Shown here: one piece after another, positions 4,246 to 11,498 of the stretch
Layout: each line of letters starts with the position of its first letter
How positions within the stretch are numbered: position 1 is the stretch's first letter
Assembly (NCBI RefSeq): GCF_003633755.1
Contig: NZ_RBIL01000001.1
Location: 1,101,426-1,165,425, forward strand
Direction of reading: 5' to 3'
From: Solirubrobacter pauli
GTDB taxonomy: Bacteria; Actinomycetota; Thermoleophilia; Solirubrobacterales; Solirubrobacteraceae
DNA: 64,000 nucleotides
Program-made: the position numbers and the translations under genes
The notes under the pieces: model-generated
The model's database searches: none
Told to the model about the DNA's origin: nothing
Seen by the model: only the letters and a program-made list of their open reading frames with translations

Positions 4246-5079
4246 GTGACCTCCGGAGCCTTCGTCCGCCAGAAGAGCCAGTTCCGCGATCGCCCCGAGG
4301 GCGGTCCGGACCGTCATCACCTGTACGTCGCCCTGGCCTGCCCGTGGTCCCAGCGGGCGGCGATCGTCCGGGCGGTCACAGGGTTGGAGATCGGCATCTC
4401 GTACGCCCATCCGTACCGCGACGAGCGCGGGTGGGCCTTCACCGGTGACCGGTTCACCGACGACGTCAACGGCTTCGCGTTCCTCCAGCAGGCCTATGAC
4501 AGCAGCGACCCGAGCTTCGAAGGCCGCGTCTCCGTCCCCGTGCTGTGGGACAAGGAGGCCGGCCGGATCGTCAACAACGAGTCGGCCGACATCGTCGTGA
4601 TCTTCGACGAGTGGACCGGCGGCACGCTCTACCCGGCCGACAAGCGGGCGGAGATCGACGAGGTCGGGGCCTGGATCTACGAGGCGTTCCAGAACGGCGT
4701 CTACCGCGCCGGGTTCAGCCGCTCACAGCGCGCGTACGACGAGGCGTTCGCCGGCGTCTTCAGCGCGCTGGACCGGATGGAGGCCCTGCTCGCCGACCGC
4801 CGGTACCTGACCGGCGACGCGATCACGCTCGCCGACTGGCGCCTGCTGCCGACGCTCCTGCGGTTCGACGCCGTCTACCACACGCACTTCCGCTGCAACG
4901 GCAGGCGGCTGATCGAGTACCCGAACCTGCTCCGCTACACCCGCGACCTCTACGCCCAGCCGGGCGTCGCCGACACGTTCGCGCTCGACGAGGTCAAGGA
5001 GCACTACTACACGACGCACGACGAGCTGAACCCGAAGCGGATCATCCCCGCCGGGCCGCTCGACCTCGGGTTCACCTAG
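4246..5079 (+). CDS. Xi-class glutathione transferase / glutathionyl-hydroquinone reductase-like
   Basis: Cytosolic thioredoxin-fold reductase of the YqjG/ECM4 family, 277 residues. The catalytic Cys is C32 in LACPWSQRAAIV, preceded by the family lead FVRQKSQFRD; the all-helical C-terminal domain includes YLTGDAITLADWRLLPTLLR and the xi-class Tyr-rich tail. Known members reduce S-glutathionyl hydroquinones. Actinobacteria generally use mycothiol rather than glutathione, so the physiological thiol is open. The start is GTG 4246, giving a protein shorter at the N-terminus than E. coli YqjG. It ends convergently with smpB, sharing CTAG at 5076-5079. Confidence 0.88.
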   Translation: MTSGAFVRQKSQFRDRPEGGPDRHHLYVALACPWSQRAAIVRAVTGLEIGISYAHPYRDERGWAFTGDRFTDDVNGFAFLQQAYDSSDPSFEGRVSVPVLWDKEAGRIVNNESADIVVIFDEWTGGTLYPADKRAEIDEVGAWIYEAFQNGVYRAGFSRSQRAYDEAFAGVFSALDRMEALLADRRYLTGDAITLADWRLLPTLLRFDAVYHTHFRCNGRRLIEYPNLLRYTRDLYAQPGVADTFALDEVKEHYYTTHDELNPKRIIPAGPLDLGFT

Positions 5080-5516
5080 CGGCGGAAGCTCCGCTCGATC
5101 TCGCGCTTCATCTCGCGCTCCTTGATCGAGTGGCGCTTGTCCTTGGCGTCCTTGCCGCGCCCGAGCGCGATCTCGACCTTGGCGTGGCGGCCCTTGAAGT
5201 AGAGCCGCGTCGGGACGAGCGTCAGGCCCTTCTCCTTGGTCTTGCCGATCAGCTTCTCGATCTCACGCCGGTGCATGAGCAGCTTGCGCGGCCGCTCGGG
5301 CTCGTGGTTCTCGCGCGTGGCCTGCGGATACGGCGCGATGTGGACGTTGTGCAGCCACACCTCGCCGTTGTAGACGGTCGCGTACCCGTCCTTGATGACC
5401 GCCTTCTTGTCGCGCAGGGACTTGACCTCGGTGCCGGTGAGCACCATGCCGCACTCCCACTTGTCCAGCAGGTTGTACTTGTACGACGCCTGGCGGTTGT
5501 TGGCGATGTCGGCCAC
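5076..5516 (-). CDS. smpB: SsrA-binding protein SmpB
   Basis: tmRNA-binding protein for rescue of stalled ribosomes, 146 residues, full length. Hallmarks are the OB-fold start NRQASYKYNLLDKWECGMVL, TGTEVKSLRDKKA, and the basic C-terminal helix KDKRHSIKEREMKREIERS that enters the mRNA channel. Start is GTG 5516. It lies 19 nt downstream of the copper-protein gene on the same strand and is probably read from the same transcript. No tmRNA gene is visible next to it. Confidence 0.97.
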   Translation of the reverse strand: MADIANNRQASYKYNLLDKWECGMVLTGTEVKSLRDKKAVIKDGYATVYNGEVWLHNVHIAPYPQATRENHEPERPRKLLMHRREIEKLIGKTKEKGLTLVPTRLYFKGRHAKVEIALGRGKDAKDKRHSIKEREMKREIERSFRR

Positions 5517-5535: not shown

Positions 5536-5889
5536 CTACCGCACGTTCAGGACCGTGCGCATCCCCAGCCGTTTGTGGCCCTCGATCGAGCAGTAGAGCT
5601 CCCACTTGCCCTTCGTCAGCTTGCCCCGCCACTCGGCGACGGCGCCGGGCAGCGTCTCCGGCACGGAGGCGATCCGCGCGCGGACCTTGCCGAGCGGGCG
5701 CAGCTTGAGGTCGTGCGGGTCCTCTCCGCGGATCGCGAGCTGGACGATCGCCGGCCCCGGCCTGACCGTCGTGCGCGAGAGCGTGAAGCGGAACTCGGTC
5801 GCCTCGACGAGCACGCGCGACGGCGCCGCGGCCTGCGCGGGGGCAACGAGCGCGAGGAACAGACTCGAACCCACGATCCAGCGCCTCAT
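5536..5889 (-). CDS. Secreted cupredoxin-like blue copper protein
   Basis: Small exported protein of 117 residues: signal peptide (MRRWIVGSSLFLALVAPAQA, cleavage after about residue 20-22) and one beta-sandwich domain. All four type-1 copper ligands are recognisable: H59 in EDPHDLKL, then C100, H105 and M110 in YCSIEGHKRLGM. This predicts one-electron transfer outside the membrane. Its ATG overlaps the DUF1501 stop by 4 nt (ATGA), so it is translationally coupled to that gene. The partner oxidase or reductase is not in the window. Confidence 0.85.
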   Translation of the reverse strand: MRRWIVGSSLFLALVAPAQAAAPSRVLVEATEFRFTLSRTTVRPGPAIVQLAIRGEDPHDLKLRPLGKVRARIASVPETLPGAVAEWRGKLTKGKWELYCSIEGHKRLGMRTVLNVR

Positions 5890-7232
5890 TTGAGGATCAC
5901 CGGGCGGCCGATGTTGCGCGCGTCCGGCAGGACGGCCAGCGGGTCGACGCCGAACCAGTCCCCGCAGAGCGCGCCGTAGAGGCCGCGGAAGTCCGACGTG
6001 GCGCGCAGGTTGCCCTGGGCGTCGAGCTTGTCCACGCCCGGGAACTCGCCGATCATCCGGCCCGCGGCGCGCGTCCCGATCAGGAAGCCGACGCCGGCCG
6101 CGCCGTGGTCGGTGCCCGACCCGTTCTCAGCCGCGCGGCGCCCGAACTCCGACCACACGAGGGTGAGCACGCGGTCGGCGAGCCCGCGCGCCTCGAGATC
6201 GCGCTGGAAGGCGAGCAGCGAGTCGAACGTGAGCTGGAGGTTCTTGGGCAACGTCTCCTCCTGGTTGGCGTGGGTGTCCCACGTGCCGGGAGCGCGGACG
6301 GAGGCGGCCCGCACCGGCAGCCCGGCGGCGAGCATCGCGGCGAAGCCGGCGAGGCGCTTCGGGAAGGCGTCGCTGGACTGCGGGTAGGCGGCAGCCGACG
6401 CGTAGGCGGGCTTGCCGTCGTTGCCGAGCGGGGCGAGCGCGTCGCGCACGGTCCCGGCGAACGCGGCCGCCTGCGCGGCCTGAGCGATCGCGGGGTCGTC
6501 CGCGCCGAGCAGCGAGCGGCCGATGTTCGTGAACGCGGGCACGGCGAGGTCCCCCGCCGGCCCCCAGGCGCCGGGTGCCCAGAAGCCGAAGTCCTCGGGC
6601 TTGTCGAGCGCCGCGACCGGGTTGCGCGCCGTGGCCAGCGACGGCGCCAGCTGGCCGTCGAGGGAGACGCCCTGCAGTGGGTTGTCGGCGGCGCCGATGC
6701 GGTCGAGCACGCGGCCGAGCCAGCCCGTGCGCAGGTTGGCGTCCAGCGCGCCGACCTCCCAGAAGTGCCGCGAGGTGAAGTGCGACTGGTCCGCGCCGGT
6801 GTAGCCGACCGCGGGGAGCACGGACACCTTGCCCTCCGCGTGCAGGTCGGCGAGCGCGTTCACCGACGGGTGCCAACGCAGCCGCGGGTCCTCGGCGAAC
6901 GGGCGGCCGTCTTTCAGCGCCAGCTGCGGGCGCAGGCGCCGGTAGGTCGCGTCCTCCACCGGGGCGAGCACGGACAGCGAGTCCACGCCGCCGTCGAGGA
7001 AGACGTTGAGCAGCACGGTGCCCGGTCCGCCCGCCTGCGCGTGCGCGACGCCGGCCTCGAACACGGGCAGCTTCGCCAGCTTGCCCGCGCCGTACACCGC
7101 CAGGCCGAGGCCGGCGGAGCGCAGCAGCAACGACCGGCGGGACAGCCCGGTGCCGGCCGGCGCGGGCATGCCGGGCTCGATCGCGGGAAGGCCCGCGGAC
7201 GCGCGGGCGTGCTCGGTGCAGCAGGTGTTCAT
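5886..7232 (-). CDS. DUF1501-family Tat-exported protein
   Basis: 448 residues. The N-terminus carries a twin-arginine signal, LSRRSLLLRSAGLGLAVYG, so the protein is exported folded. The rest matches the DUF1501 (sulfatase-like fold) family: FLDGGVDSLSVLAP near the start, WDTHANQE and the metal-site-like WSEFGRRAAENGSGTDHGAA toward the end. The family has no established biochemistry; it almost always sits beside a DUF1800 gene, as here. ATG 7232 overlaps the upstream DUF1800 stop by 4 nt, and its own stop overlaps the cupredoxin start, making a three-gene coupled unit. Confidence 0.9.
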   Translation of the reverse strand: MNTCCTEHARASAGLPAIEPGMPAPAGTGLSRRSLLLRSAGLGLAVYGAGKLAKLPVFEAGVAHAQAGGPGTVLLNVFLDGGVDSLSVLAPVEDATYRRLRPQLALKDGRPFAEDPRLRWHPSVNALADLHAEGKVSVLPAVGYTGADQSHFTSRHFWEVGALDANLRTGWLGRVLDRIGAADNPLQGVSLDGQLAPSLATARNPVAALDKPEDFGFWAPGAWGPAGDLAVPAFTNIGRSLLGADDPAIAQAAQAAAFAGTVRDALAPLGNDGKPAYASAAAYPQSSDAFPKRLAGFAAMLAAGLPVRAASVRAPGTWDTHANQEETLPKNLQLTFDSLLAFQRDLEARGLADRVLTLVWSEFGRRAAENGSGTDHGAAGVGFLIGTRAAGRMIGEFPGVDKLDAQGNLRATSDFRGLYGALCGDWFGVDPLAVLPDARNIGRPVILK

Positions 7233-8572
7233 GAGGTCAGGTAGTCGGGAGAGGTGGCGACGAGCATCCGCAGGGCGTTGACCGCCAGCACGGGGTAGGT
7301 CTTCTTCTTCCAGGGCTCGTCGGCGGTCGCGAGCGTGTCGGCGGCGTAGCGCTCGAGGCCCGCGCGGACGGGGCCGGACAGCGTCGGGTCGCCCCAGAAC
7401 GTCACGGCCTGGCGGACGAGCTCGCCGGCGTCGAGCGGCGCGGTCGCGCCCTTGTCGGGCTCGAGCCGGGCGGGTTCGCAGATGTGCTGGGCCATCATCC
7501 AGCGGGCGCGGAACGTGGCCGTGTCCAGCCAGCGCGAGTCGTCCCAGCCGGAGACGTTCGGCGGCAGGAACAGGTACTGGCCGGCGATCTCGCACAGCCA
7601 CGCCCAGGCGCCGGAGTCGATGCCACGCCCGACCGCGCGCAGCATGCCCGCCGCCTGGACGACGGGCGGCTTGACCATCCGCCGGCGCGGGTCGTAGAGG
7701 TCCGGGTGCGCGAGGATCGCCTCGACCAGCGGGCGCACGTCGCGATCGTGCTTGACGTACAGCTTGATGAGGCCCTTGACGGTCGCCGCCGACGGCTTGG
7801 TCGGGATGAACGCGCCCCACAGCTTCGTGACCAGGAACTCGGGGTGCCGACGGTGCCGCGTGACGAGCTTCACGCCCTCCTGCCAGGTGAACTTCCCGCG
7901 CTTGCCGTAGATCTTCTTCGGCTTGGCGTCGTGGAGCTTCTTGACGTACCGGAAGCGGGTCGGGCCGGAGTCGGTCCAGTCGTTGGCGAAGCCGGTCAGC
8001 GCCCGCGCGAGCTCCCGCACGTCCTGCTCGGTGTAGCCGCGGCCCGCACCGAGGCAGAACAGCTCCTGCAGCTCGCGCGCGTAGTTCTCGTTCGCGCTGT
8101 AGACGTGGTTGTCGGTCCCGTTGAGCCACAGCAGCATCGCCGGGTCCTTCGTGATGTCCAGCGTGAGCCGCTCGAAGTTGCCGAGCGCGTGCCGGCGCAG
8201 CAGCGCGTTCTGGCGCAGCATCAGCTTCTGCGGCACGCCCGACTTGGACGTCGCGAACCAGTCGTGCCAGATCAGCGTCATCCGCTCGACGAGCGGCGCC
8301 TCGGTGCGCACCATCCGGTCCAGCCACCACAGGTGGTCGTGGCCCCACGCGTCGCGCGGCGCGAGCGGCGCGCCGTCGACGGCCGGGTTCGGCCCGAGCA
8401 GCCGCGTGGACTTCGGCCGGGTCAGCGAACGGATCGCGCCCTGCAGGCCGAGCTCGGCCAACTCCGTCGCCTGCCCCGGCTTCGGGCCGAAGCCCGCCCG
8501 CCACAGCAACCGCGTCGCCTGCTCTTCACCGAATGCCCCTTTGTACGACGGAACCCCCACGACGTAAAGCAT
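7229..8572 (-). CDS. DUF1800-family protein
   Basis: About 447 residues from ATG 8572. DUF1800 signatures: the opening GEEQATRLLWRAGFGP, the conserved FATSKSGVPQKLML block, NENYARELQELFCLGAG, and FLPPNVSGWDD. Function is unknown; the family pairs with DUF1501 and is thought to be envelope-associated. No obvious signal peptide is seen. An earlier in-frame ATG at 8605 would leave only 26 nt to the divergent fdhA start, so I prefer 8572; GTG 8560 is also possible. First gene of the DUF1800-DUF1501-cupredoxin-smpB run. Confidence 0.87.
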   Translation of the reverse strand: MLYVVGVPSYKGAFGEEQATRLLWRAGFGPKPGQATELAELGLQGAIRSLTRPKSTRLLGPNPAVDGAPLAPRDAWGHDHLWWLDRMVRTEAPLVERMTLIWHDWFATSKSGVPQKLMLRQNALLRRHALGNFERLTLDITKDPAMLLWLNGTDNHVYSANENYARELQELFCLGAGRGYTEQDVRELARALTGFANDWTDSGPTRFRYVKKLHDAKPKKIYGKRGKFTWQEGVKLVTRHRRHPEFLVTKLWGAFIPTKPSAATVKGLIKLYVKHDRDVRPLVEAILAHPDLYDPRRRMVKPPVVQAAGMLRAVGRGIDSGAWAWLCEIAGQYLFLPPNVSGWDDSRWLDTATFRARWMMAQHICEPARLEPDKGATAPLDAGELVRQAVTFWGDPTLSGPVRAGLERYAADTLATADEPWKKKTYPVLAVNALRMLVATSPDYLTS

Positions 8573-8616
8573 CGGACCGCGTACGTCCAACCTGAAGGGG
8601 CCCATCCCCCATCGGC

Positions 8617-8631: not shown

Positions 8632-9849
8632 ATGCCTGACAATCGAGGGGTTGCCTACATGGGCCCCGGGGAGGTCGAGGTTCAGACCATCGACTTCCCG
8701 AGCTTCACCGTCCAGGATGGCCCCGGTGTACCGCAGGAGAACGTCGGCCGAGAGTGCCACCACGGCGTCATCCTGAAGATCGTCTCGACCAACATCTGCG
8801 GCTCCGACCAGCACATGGTCCGTGGCCGCACGACCGCGCCCGAAGGGCTGATCCTCGGGCACGAGATCACCGGCGAGGTGGTCGAGAAGGGGCGGGACGT
8901 CGAGTTCCTCGACGAAGGGGACCTCGTCTCCGTGCCCTTCAACATCGCGTGCGGCCGCTGCCGCAACTGCAAGCAGCAGGACACCGGCATCTGTTTGACC
9001 GTGAACCCGGAGCGTCCCGGCGCGGCCTACGGCTACGTCGACATGGGTGGCTGGGTCGGCGGCCAGGCCGAGTACGTGATGGTCCCCTACGCCGACTTCA
9101 ACTGCCTGAAGTTCCCCGACAAGGCGCAGGCGATGGAGAAGATCCTCGACCTGACGATGTTGTCGGACATCTTCCCGACCGGCTTCCACGGCTGCGTGAC
9201 CGCGGGCGTGCGTCCCGGGAGCACCGTCTACGTCGCCGGAGCCGGACCGGTGGGCCTGGCGGCGGCGCACAGCGCGCAGCTGCTCGGCGCGGCGGTCGTG
9301 ATCGTCGGCGACCTGAACGAGGCGCGGCTCAAGCAGGCCGCGTCGTTCGGCTGTGAGACCGTCGACGTCTCCAAGGGCGACCCGAAGGACCAGATCGAGC
9401 AGATCCTGGGCGTGCCGGAGGTGGACGCCGGCGTCGACGCGGTCGGCTTCGAGGCGCGCGGCCACGGTGAGCACGCGGCCGAGGAAGCACCCGCGACCGT
9501 GCTCAACAGCCTGATGGACCTGACCCGCGCGGGCGGCGCGCTCGGCATCCCCGGGCTCTACGTGACCGGCGACCCGGGCGCGTCCGACGACGCCGCCAAG
9601 GAGGGCTCGCTGTCGATCCGGATCGGGCTCGGCTGGGCCAAGTCGCACAGCTTCGCCACCGGCCAGTGCCCGGTCATGAAGTACCACCGCGACCTGATGC
9701 AGGCCATCCTCAACGACCGCGCGCAGATCGCCAAGGCCGTCAACGCGCAGGTGATCTCACTCGACGACGCGCCGCAGGGCTACAAGGACTTCGACAAGGG
9801 CGAGTCCGTGAAGTTCGTGATCAACCCGAACGGGCTGGTCCGAACCTAG
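8632..9849 (+). CDS. fdhA: Zinc- and NAD-dependent formaldehyde dehydrogenase (glutathione-independent type)
   Basis: Medium-chain dehydrogenase of 405 residues, closest in pattern to the Pseudomonas putida glutathione-independent formaldehyde dehydrogenase. Catalytic zinc ligands C56 (NICGSDQHM) and H77 (ILGHEITGE); structural-zinc cysteines C107, C110, C113 and C121; Rossmann motif VAGAGPVGLAAAHSA near 200. The YVDMGGWVGGQAEY insertion is typical of this subgroup, which retains NAD tightly. No ribosome site is visible. The last four bases, CTAG, are shared with the convergent RNase R gene. Confidence 0.9.
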   Translation: MPDNRGVAYMGPGEVEVQTIDFPSFTVQDGPGVPQENVGRECHHGVILKIVSTNICGSDQHMVRGRTTAPEGLILGHEITGEVVEKGRDVEFLDEGDLVSVPFNIACGRCRNCKQQDTGICLTVNPERPGAAYGYVDMGGWVGGQAEYVMVPYADFNCLKFPDKAQAMEKILDLTMLSDIFPTGFHGCVTAGVRPGSTVYVAGAGPVGLAAAHSAQLLGAAVVIVGDLNEARLKQAASFGCETVDVSKGDPKDQIEQILGVPEVDAGVDAVGFEARGHGEHAAEEAPATVLNSLMDLTRAGGALGIPGLYVTGDPGASDDAAKEGSLSIRIGLGWAKSHSFATGQCPVMKYHRDLMQAILNDRAQIAKAVNAQVISLDDAPQGYKDFDKGESVKFVINPNGLVRT

Positions 9850-11498
9850 ATTTCGACCGGCAGGAGGTCGACGCGTCCACGCGGCGCGTCGATCTTCTCC
9901 ACCTGGACCGTGACCTCGTCCCCGAGGCGGATGCGCATGCCGCTCTTGGTGGCGATCAGCATCGTCTCCTCCTCGTTGAGCTCCCACCAGTCGTCGCGGA
10001 GCTTGCGAACGGGCAGCAGGCCCTCGTACCCGTCGAAGGCGACGAACGCGCCCGCGCCGATCAGCCCCCGCACCTGGCCGCGGAACTCGCGCTGCCAGCC
10101 GCCGGTCCGGAACAGCTCGCTCTCGAGCAGGAAGGCGCGGGCGACGTTGTCGGCGGCGCGCTCGATCGTCATCGCGTCGCGCTCACGCTGCGAGCAGTGC
10201 TCGGCGGCCGGCTCGAGGTCGGAGACGCGCACGGTCGGCTCCGGGAACCCGATCGCCGACAGCAGCGCGCGGTGGCAGATCAGGTCCGGGTAGCGGCGGA
10301 TCGGCGAGGTGAAGTGGCAGTAGCGCTCCGACCGCAGCCCGAAGTGGCCGAGGTTCTTGTCGCTGTAGCGCGCCTGCTTGAGCGATCGCAGGATCAGCGA
10401 TGTGTACGCGGGCCCGCGGACCCTGCGCGCGGCCTCCTCGACGAGCTCGCCGGCCTGGTTGGCGGTCATGTGCTCGGGCGCGGGTGGCGTCGGCAGGTCC
10501 AGCGACGCGAGCTGGTCCAGCAGGCGCGCCACGCGCGCCGGGTCCGGCGGCTCGTGCACGCGGAACATGCCCGGCAGCTTGCGCTTCTCCAGCAGGTCGG
10601 CGACCGCCTCGTTGGCCGCGATCATCAGGAACTCGATCAGCTCGTGCGCCTCGGTCGTCTCGCTCGCCTCGACGCTCTTGACGTGGCCGTCAGGGGTGAA
10701 CTCGAACTCGGGCTCGGTCGACTCCACGGTCAGCGCACCGCGCGCCGCCCGCTTCTCCGCCAGGGTCCGGGCCACGCGCCGCGCCTCCGCCAGCCCCGCC
10801 GGCCCGGCCTCGCCACGCGCGAACAGGTCGTCCACCTCGGGGTAGGAGAGCCGCGCATCGGAGCGGATGATCGACCGGTGGAACGCGGTGCGGCGCACCG
10901 TGGCGCCGTCGAGCTCGAGCTCGACCGTCACCGCCAGCCGGTCCTGGTGCGGGACGAGCGAGCAGGCCCCGTTCGAGAGCGCCTCGGGCAGCATCGGCTC
11001 GACGAGCCCGGGCACGTACACGGACGTGCCGCGCCGGAACGCCTCACGGTCGAGCGCCGACCCGGGCTTCACGTAGGCGGACACGTCCGCGATGTGCACC
11101 CACACGCGGACGGCGCCGTCGGGGAGCGCCTCGGCGGAGATCGCGTCGTCGAAGTCGCGGGCGGACGGCGGGTCGATCGTGAACGTCGGCAGGTCGCGCA
11201 GGTCGCGGCGTCCTTCGTGGGACGGCTCCGCCGAGCGCGCCTCGCGCTCCACCAGGGGGTCGAAGCGCCGCCGCAGCCCGCGGTGCAGCATCAGCCCTTC
11301 CAGCACGTCGCGGGCGACGTCGGGGCGCCCCAGCCGCCGGACGAGCCGGAATCGCCGGCCCTTCGCGGGCGCCGCCAGCACCAGGTCCCCGATCCGCTCG
11401 CGCCGCGGCTTGTCGACCTCGACGCGCTGCCCGGGCTCGAAGAACGGCGTGACCGCGTAGTGCTTGCCGTGCTTCTCGAGGACCCCGACCAGCGTCAA
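9846..11498 (-). CDS. rnr: Short RNase R-type 3'-5' exoribonuclease
   Basis: RNB-domain exoribonuclease, 550 residues. The catalytic segment TIDPPSARDFDDAIS near residue 107 holds the metal-binding aspartates; HIADVSAYVKPGS, MLPEALSNGACSL and HFTSPIRRYPDLICHR follow. A C-terminal S1 domain is present (residues about 475-548). It is much shorter than E. coli RNase R: the winged-helix and first cold-shock domains are largely missing. The start is TTG 11498, overlapping the stop of the upstream protease gene in TTGA, implying translational coupling. Confidence 0.88.
   Translation of the reverse strand: MTLVGVLEKHGKHYAVTPFFEPGQRVEVDKPRRERIGDLVLAAPAKGRRFRLVRRLGRPDVARDVLEGLMLHRGLRRRFDPLVEREARSAEPSHEGRRDLRDLPTFTIDPPSARDFDDAISAEALPDGAVRVWVHIADVSAYVKPGSALDREAFRRGTSVYVPGLVEPMLPEALSNGACSLVPHQDRLAVTVELELDGATVRRTAFHRSIIRSDARLSYPEVDDLFARGEAGPAGLAEARRVARTLAEKRAARGALTVESTEPEFEFTPDGHVKSVEASETTEAHELIEFLMIAANEAVADLLEKRKLPGMFRVHEPPDPARVARLLDQLASLDLPTPPAPEHMTANQAGELVEEAARRVRGPAYTSLILRSLKQARYSDKNLGHFGLRSERYCHFTSPIRRYPDLICHRALLSAIGFPEPTVRVSDLEPAAEHCSQRERDAMTIERAADNVARAFLLESELFRTGGWQREFRGQVRGLIGAGAFVAFDGYEGLLPVRKLRDDWWELNEEETMLIATKSGMRIRLGDEVTVQVEKIDAPRGRVDLLPVEI

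Follow-up and report, generated by a model that had tools for sequence, protein, structure and literature searches.

The window, i.e. the whole stretch of 64,000 nucleotides that was analysed, belongs to a 7.1 Mb genome of the Thermoleophilia, a class of soil actinobacteria. Its minus strand carries three genes in the order DUF1800 (8572-7229), DUF1501 (7232-5886) and cupredoxin (5889-5536). The DUF1800 gene encodes a protein of 447 aa, which matches PF08811 with 299.5 bits for a cut-off of 26.1, and an alternative ATG is found upstream of its start, at position 8605. The DUF1501 product (448 aa) matches PF07394 with 76.4 bits for a cut-off of 27, and the cupredoxin gene encodes a 117-aa protein, in which residues 1-20 (MRRWIVGSSLFLALVAPAQA) form a predicted signal peptide. 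The DUF1800 and DUF1501 genes overlap by four bases (ATGA, 7229..7232, minus strand) and the DUF1501 and cupredoxin genes do the same (ATGA, 5886..5889, minus strand). The initial annotation had described both overlaps, the signal peptide of the cupredoxin and a Tat signal in DUF1501, and all of them were recovered, with the open reading frames at the coordinates given above. Its title spoke of genes that are translationally fused; because the three open reading frames are separate, "translationally coupled" is the right term. Promoters and terminators gave no signal above chance.

The third gene encodes a predicted type 1 copper protein

The 117-aa protein presents H59 (5713..5715), C100 (5590..5592), H105 (5575..5577) and M110 (5560..5562, all on the minus strand) in the canonical cupredoxin order and spacing, and the ligand numbering proposed earlier agrees with the window sequence. 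His/Cys/His/Met is the classic electron-transfer copper site. An alignment of 65 homologues, all taken from genes adjoining the pair, shows no variation at D57, H59 or C100 and hardly any at H105, G109 or M110; the columns of H105 and M110 are at least 90% conserved, and the departures at H105 reflect altered spacing, with the His retained. All 65 intact homologues have the full H/C/H/M set: 60 follow one pattern and 5 have a longer Cys-His spacing.

The window cupredoxin alone gave no Pfam match. Among the 65 homologues, Cupredoxin_1 (PF13473) matches 30 and Copper-bind matches 25. The profile of the family, compared with the PDB, matched type 1 copper domains with a best E of 4.6e-10, namely those of nitrite reductases, auracyanin and plastocyanin, and the entries 2dv6, 6tfd and 1qhq are among these matches. 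The type 1 copper proteins have the same ligand set and the same C-terminal C-x4-H-x4-M spacing as the window protein. Unlike them, the window protein belongs to a distinct group that is secreted, single-domain and linked to DUF1501, and that bears the signature GED-x-HD. By family, the third protein is a type 1 copper cupredoxin, for which copper binding and redox activity are predicted. The homologue of Miltoncostaea oceani, also of the Thermoleophilia, is annotated as 'hypothetical protein'.

The cupredoxin linkage extends through the Thermoleophilia

DUF1800 is present in 90 of 299 Thermoleophilia genomes. The neighbourhood sample consisted of 80 regions around DUF1800, which gave 79 evaluable loci, the window included, and DUF1501 follows DUF1800 in essentially every region of sufficient length. 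A cupredoxin homologue adjoins the pair in 68 of these 79 loci, 55 times downstream of DUF1501 and 13 times upstream of DUF1800. As the cupredoxin profile matches only 7 places in the window genome, an adjacency of this frequency exceeds what chance would give. The adjacent gene is missing in 11 loci, and some genomes without a pair-adjoining cupredoxin hold a similar one elsewhere. The window genome also has a second, diverged DUF1800-DUF1501 pair, which is likewise accompanied by a cupredoxin. The exact 4-base overlap between the cupredoxin and the DUF1501 stop was found in 26 of the 48 measurable downstream cases, i.e. those in which the signal peptide allowed the cupredoxin start to be selected, a choice that carries no bias for proximity to the DUF1800 stop.

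A tree was built from 172 DUF1800 proteins, and its Thermoleophilia members all fall in one clade with a support of 1.0. The deepest split of this clade separates the two paralogues of the window genome and presents cupredoxin linkage on both sides; along the tree, the cupredoxin switched between the downstream and the upstream position with the linkage kept, and the absences are scattered. Since 13 loci have the cupredoxin upstream of DUF1800, the linkage has outlived changes of gene order. The simplest reading of this tree would be a single ancestral gain of the cupredoxin in Thermoleophilia, with later losses and moves. The initial annotation had considered that the association might be unique to its locus, and this was rejected: the link is class-wide (68 of 79 loci), is found in both paralogous lineages and comes with ATGA overlaps and in altered gene order. 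Judged by these comparisons, DUF1800, DUF1501 and the cupredoxin are a conserved three-gene unit with predicted translational coupling.

Outside Thermoleophilia, DUF1501 is still nearly always found directly after DUF1800 (102 loci). No cupredoxin adjoins the pair in 29 loci from other actinobacteria, in one of which a cupredoxin lies nearly 4 kb from the pair, or in 73 loci sampled across about 15 further phyla, and a cupredoxin as a general property of DUF1800-DUF1501 was rejected on these counts. Because it is lacking beside 102 pairs outside the class, the mere presence of the pair does not account for the cupredoxin link. In the other phyla, the surroundings of the pair showed no consistent alternative third gene, cytochrome or electron carrier, the only recurring features being two-component regulators and local synteny. 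Neither glycan genes conserved beside the pair nor natural fusions of cupredoxin and DUF1501 were seen.

The window pair is to be placed within the pan-bacterial DUF1800-DUF1501 (PF08811-PF07394) pair, as it has the same families, the same order and the same Tat signal in DUF1501 as nearly all loci of our sample, in about 15 phyla. Compared with this general pair, the Thermoleophilia form is marked by the cupredoxin as third gene and by a long Cys-bearing n-region of DUF1501; a few other actinobacteria present CxC n-regions without a cupredoxin.

Export signals of the pair

The twin arginine of the DUF1501 Tat signal, R32-R33 (7134..7139, minus strand), precedes a hydrophobic segment, as in Tat substrates. 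R32 is conserved in 76 of 76 sequences, and position 33 holds R in 70 and K in 6 of them. Residues 1-31, which precede the twin arginine, constitute a long n-region with C4-C5 (7140..7232, minus strand). Of 80 Thermoleophilia DUF1501 proteins, all except one or two have a Cys upstream of RR, commonly as CC or CxC, while outside the class the median n-region length is 5 aa and 13 of 99 proteins contain Cys there. Several of these 13 are of the CGC type and come from other actinobacteria. The start codons in this n-region survey were picked for closeness to the DUF1800 stop, which makes it unusable for counting DUF1800/DUF1501 overlaps.

DUF1800 of the window presents no signal peptide, and none of the 80 Thermoleophilia members has a hydrophobic N-terminal segment. 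It is a natural inference from these sequences that DUF1800 would be co-exported with DUF1501 as a Tat hitchhiker. Some Thermoleophilia DUF1800 proteins contain Pro-rich linkers, and the partner protein of the second pair in the window genome has an N-terminal segment that resembles, by eye, a fibronectin type III domain.

DUF1501 model presents an alkaline-phosphatase-superfamily fold

The AlphaFold2 model of DUF1501 (pLDDT 85.8) exhibits an alkaline-phosphatase-superfamily fold. Its closest structure is Xac NPP (7mw8), a bacterial nucleotide pyrophosphatase/phosphodiesterase, with a VIA Z of 18.8 and an rmsd of 3.2 over 241 residues; VIA returned 489 chains at Z >= 8, and the top matches from both aligners are members of this superfamily. 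The nearest folds comprise nucleotide pyrophosphatase/phosphodiesterases, sulfatases, LtaS and phosphoethanolamine transferase. No convincing sequence relative of DUF1501 was found in the PDB. On the predicted model, DUF1501 is an alkaline-phosphatase-superfamily fold, an assignment that, we presume, may already exist as a Pfam clan. To our knowledge, this fold is otherwise that of hydrolytic or transferase enzymes and not of redox enzymes.

Seven residues of DUF1501, H151, D319, H321, E362, R365, D375 and H376, are conserved in Thermoleophilia, and the same seven are kept in other actinobacteria, in planctomycetes and in pairs that other phyla carry on plasmids. S150-H151 (6780..6785, minus strand) is invariant in the class, and H151 is kept in all lineages examined, planctomycetes included. 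D319 and H321 of the D319-T-H321 stretch (6270..6278, minus strand) are conserved from Thermoleophilia to planctomycetes, and so is D375-H376 (6105..6110, minus strand), a DHG motif of the alkaline phosphatase type. DUF1501 shares this motif and the overall fold with the alkaline phosphatase superfamily (nucleotide pyrophosphatase/phosphodiesterase, sulfatases). Unlike in that superfamily, the canonical nucleophile and the first-strand Asp appear not to be conserved: position 147, where the nucleophile is expected, holds Pro or Ala and position 80, that of the first-strand Asp, varies, both positions having been located by motif alignment rather than by superposed coordinates. We infer a metal site in DUF1501 with unusual chemistry.

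DUF1800 is remotely similar to a planctomycete haem-protein domain

The AlphaFold2 model of DUF1800 has a pLDDT of 96 and is mostly helical. No fold match was obtained in the PDB, with no Foldseek match at E <= 0.001 and a VIA Z of at most 3.4 in a comparison that tested mainly the C-terminal helices, and no convincing sequence relative was found there either.

A likeness was detected instead with PSD1, a part of the planctomycete PSCyt1-PSCyt2-PSD1 proteins (PF07635-PF07583-PF07587), for which 20 loci from three genomes were sampled. A comparison of the DUF1800 profile with the PSD1 part (hhalign) gave an alignment of 57 columns at a P of 1.7e-6, and the C-terminal part of DUF1800 alone gave a P of 3.8e-7, while reversed and shuffled controls gave a P of 0.1 or worse. 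A second, weaker match was found to the start of PSCyt2, the order being the same. An HMM search matched 48 of 172 DUF1800 proteins and only one of the 344 decoys made by shuffling or reversal; the reciprocal search matched 16 of the 20 PSD proteins, which took the top 13 places. At the level of profiles, DUF1800 is remotely similar to PSD1.

Each of the 20 PSCyt1-PSCyt2-PSD1 proteins contains at least 2 CxxCH motifs, and a recognisable DUF1501, checked with Pfam, lies directly after nearly all of their genes. As in the window, the downstream DUF1501 has the same conserved site and an electron carrier is part of the unit. The carrier of planctomycetes is a c-type haem inside the partner protein, whereas that of the window is a separate blue-copper protein; the window DUF1800 has no CxxCH, unlike the PSCyt2-PSD1 partner, with which it shares only the remote PSD1 similarity. 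Considering the PSCyt-DUF1501 gene order together with the DUF1800-PSD1 similarity, the same DUF1501 seems to have a partner of the DUF1800/PSD1 type in planctomycetes and Thermoleophilia alike, accompanied by c-type haem in the former and by a cupredoxin in the latter.

The DUF1800-DUF1501 pair and the PSCyt-DUF1501 module are already known as conserved unknowns. The literature available to us gives no function for DUF1800 or DUF1501 and calls their function unknown, nor does it describe the class-wide cupredoxin-coupled form, the alkaline phosphatase fold of the window DUF1501 or the similarity of DUF1800 to PSD1. DUF1800-DUF1501 and PSCyt-DUF1501, which the literature keeps apart, are now joined.

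A proposed extracytoplasmic redox module

A cupredoxin beside the pair suggests that these two proteins, very common and unexplained, take part in oxidation-reduction. We propose, as a reading that falls a little short of an even chance, that DUF1800 and DUF1501 form a Tat-exported metalloprotein complex, which would exchange electrons with its own cupredoxin, the substrate, the metal and the electron transfer all being putative. DUF1800 would fold with DUF1501 in the cytoplasm and leave through Tat as a hitchhiker; DUF1501 would bind a metal ion at H151/D319/H321/E362/D375/H376, and the two proteins would act on an extracytoplasmic substrate, while the cupredoxin would carry single electrons between the complex and the respiratory chain. 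In the planctomycete version of the core, c-type haems would be built into the DUF1800-like partner.

The linkage of the cupredoxin in two gene orders, its complete ligands in 65 of 65 homologues and the di-haem pairing of planctomycetes argue for such a redox module. Against it stand all the other phyla sampled and 11 of the 79 class loci, where the pair does without a neighbouring cupredoxin, and the alkaline-phosphatase fold, which is otherwise that of hydrolytic or transferase enzymes. The extracytoplasmic redox role put forward in the initial annotation stands in part: it gains from the planctomycete di-haem genes that precede DUF1501 and from the DUF1800-PSD1 similarity, and it is limited by the confinement of the cupredoxin to Thermoleophilia in our sample and by the lack of a consistently adjacent electron carrier beside the pair in other phyla.

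The nearest folds of DUF1501, from nucleotide pyrophosphatase/phosphodiesterases and sulfatases to LtaS and phosphoethanolamine transferase, would also suit a hydrolase or transferase of the alkaline phosphatase type, acting on cell-envelope or extracellular polymers, with DUF1800 as a scaffold and the cupredoxin in a separate oxidative step of the same pathway. In some proteobacteria DUF1800-DUF1501 occurs in the context of chitin synthase and is co-transferred with it (PMC5122149), which favours a role in cell-surface polymers over one in electron transfer, and in Verrucomicrobia the PSCyt genes, whose function is unknown, adjoin sulfatase genes and in some cases carry carbohydrate-binding modules (PMC5615132). 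However, the Pro/Ala at the usual nucleophile position 147 and the variable first-strand Asp 80, as placed by motif, and the lack of conserved glycan genes beside the pair count against such an enzyme, which we regard as unlikely, although it is the best of the alternatives.

A copper-delivery role, in which the cupredoxin would act as a metallochaperone instead of an electron carrier and supply DUF1501 (or DUF1800) with copper following export through Tat, appears more doubtful still. It would account for the close coupling of the cupredoxin gene to that of a single putative metalloprotein, which has many His and Asp residues in its conserved site and a Cys pair in its n-region, but the ligand set is the classic one of electron transfer in every one of the 65 homologues, DUF1501 manages without a cupredoxin in other phyla, and its partners in planctomycetes are haem proteins, not copper proteins. 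Neutral linkage, in which the cupredoxin merely rides in the transcript with no functional contact, might explain the 11 class loci without an adjacent gene and the similar cupredoxin kept elsewhere in some of these genomes, but it is very improbable and already disfavoured, as the link persists in both paralogue lineages and through downstream-to-upstream moves, with four-base overlaps conserved.

Returning to the redox module, c-type haem in the planctomycete DUF1800-like partner implies that the electron carrier would be the exchangeable part. In a broader and more tentative form of this reading, which we think rather more apt to fail than to hold, DUF1501 and a DUF1800/PSD1-type partner may be the core of a widespread and hitherto unrecognised extracytoplasmic redox enzyme on an alkaline-phosphatase fold, served by a fused haem in planctomycetes, by a coupled cupredoxin in Thermoleophilia and by free carriers elsewhere. 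A dedicated blue-copper protein offers a measurable handle, through its colour and redox potential, so that the redox activity of the family is directly testable. DUF1501 and its partners are spread over many bacterial phyla, and one planctomycete genome alone presents 68 PSD1 matches.

N-terminal extension of DUF1501

The DUF1501 proteins of the Thermoleophilia, both in the window and in the class homologues (loci L033-L112), carry an extension of 20-45 aa ahead of the twin arginine of the Tat signal, in which a Cys or a CC/CxC motif is conserved (window 7140-7232). CGC-like versions of this extension are found without a cupredoxin in several other actinobacteria (L144-L146, L149 and L157). 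Conceivably, the Cys-bearing extension controls export by sensing metal or redox state.

Genomic context and variant loci

The genes for SmpB and ribonuclease R are frequently adjacent across bacteria. In the window, smpB (5076-5516) and a ribonuclease R-like gene (9846-11498) enclose the DUF1800-DUF1501-cupredoxin unit as well as a divergent gene (8632-9849) that resembles zinc alcohol dehydrogenases and has ADH_N and ADH_zinc_N domains.

The DUF1800 of the second pair of this genome (locus L033; G000:C2:1387105-1397562) has no signal peptide and presents a fibronectin-type-III-like segment at its N-terminus, which suggests that the protein is nevertheless located extracytoplasmically.

In L055 and L174, the entire DUF1800-DUF1501 pair is duplicated in tandem, with a cupredoxin after the second pair only. 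The pair-adjoining cupredoxin gene of L060 (5724-6072) is divided over two frames, reflecting either a frameshift or an assembly error. In a Pedosphaera MAG (L211), a fragment of PSD1, the planctomycete domain remotely similar to DUF1800, and then a DUF1501-like stretch (L211:3-584 and 1316-1873) lie upstream of a DUF1800-DUF1501 pair, and therefore both forms adjoin each other.
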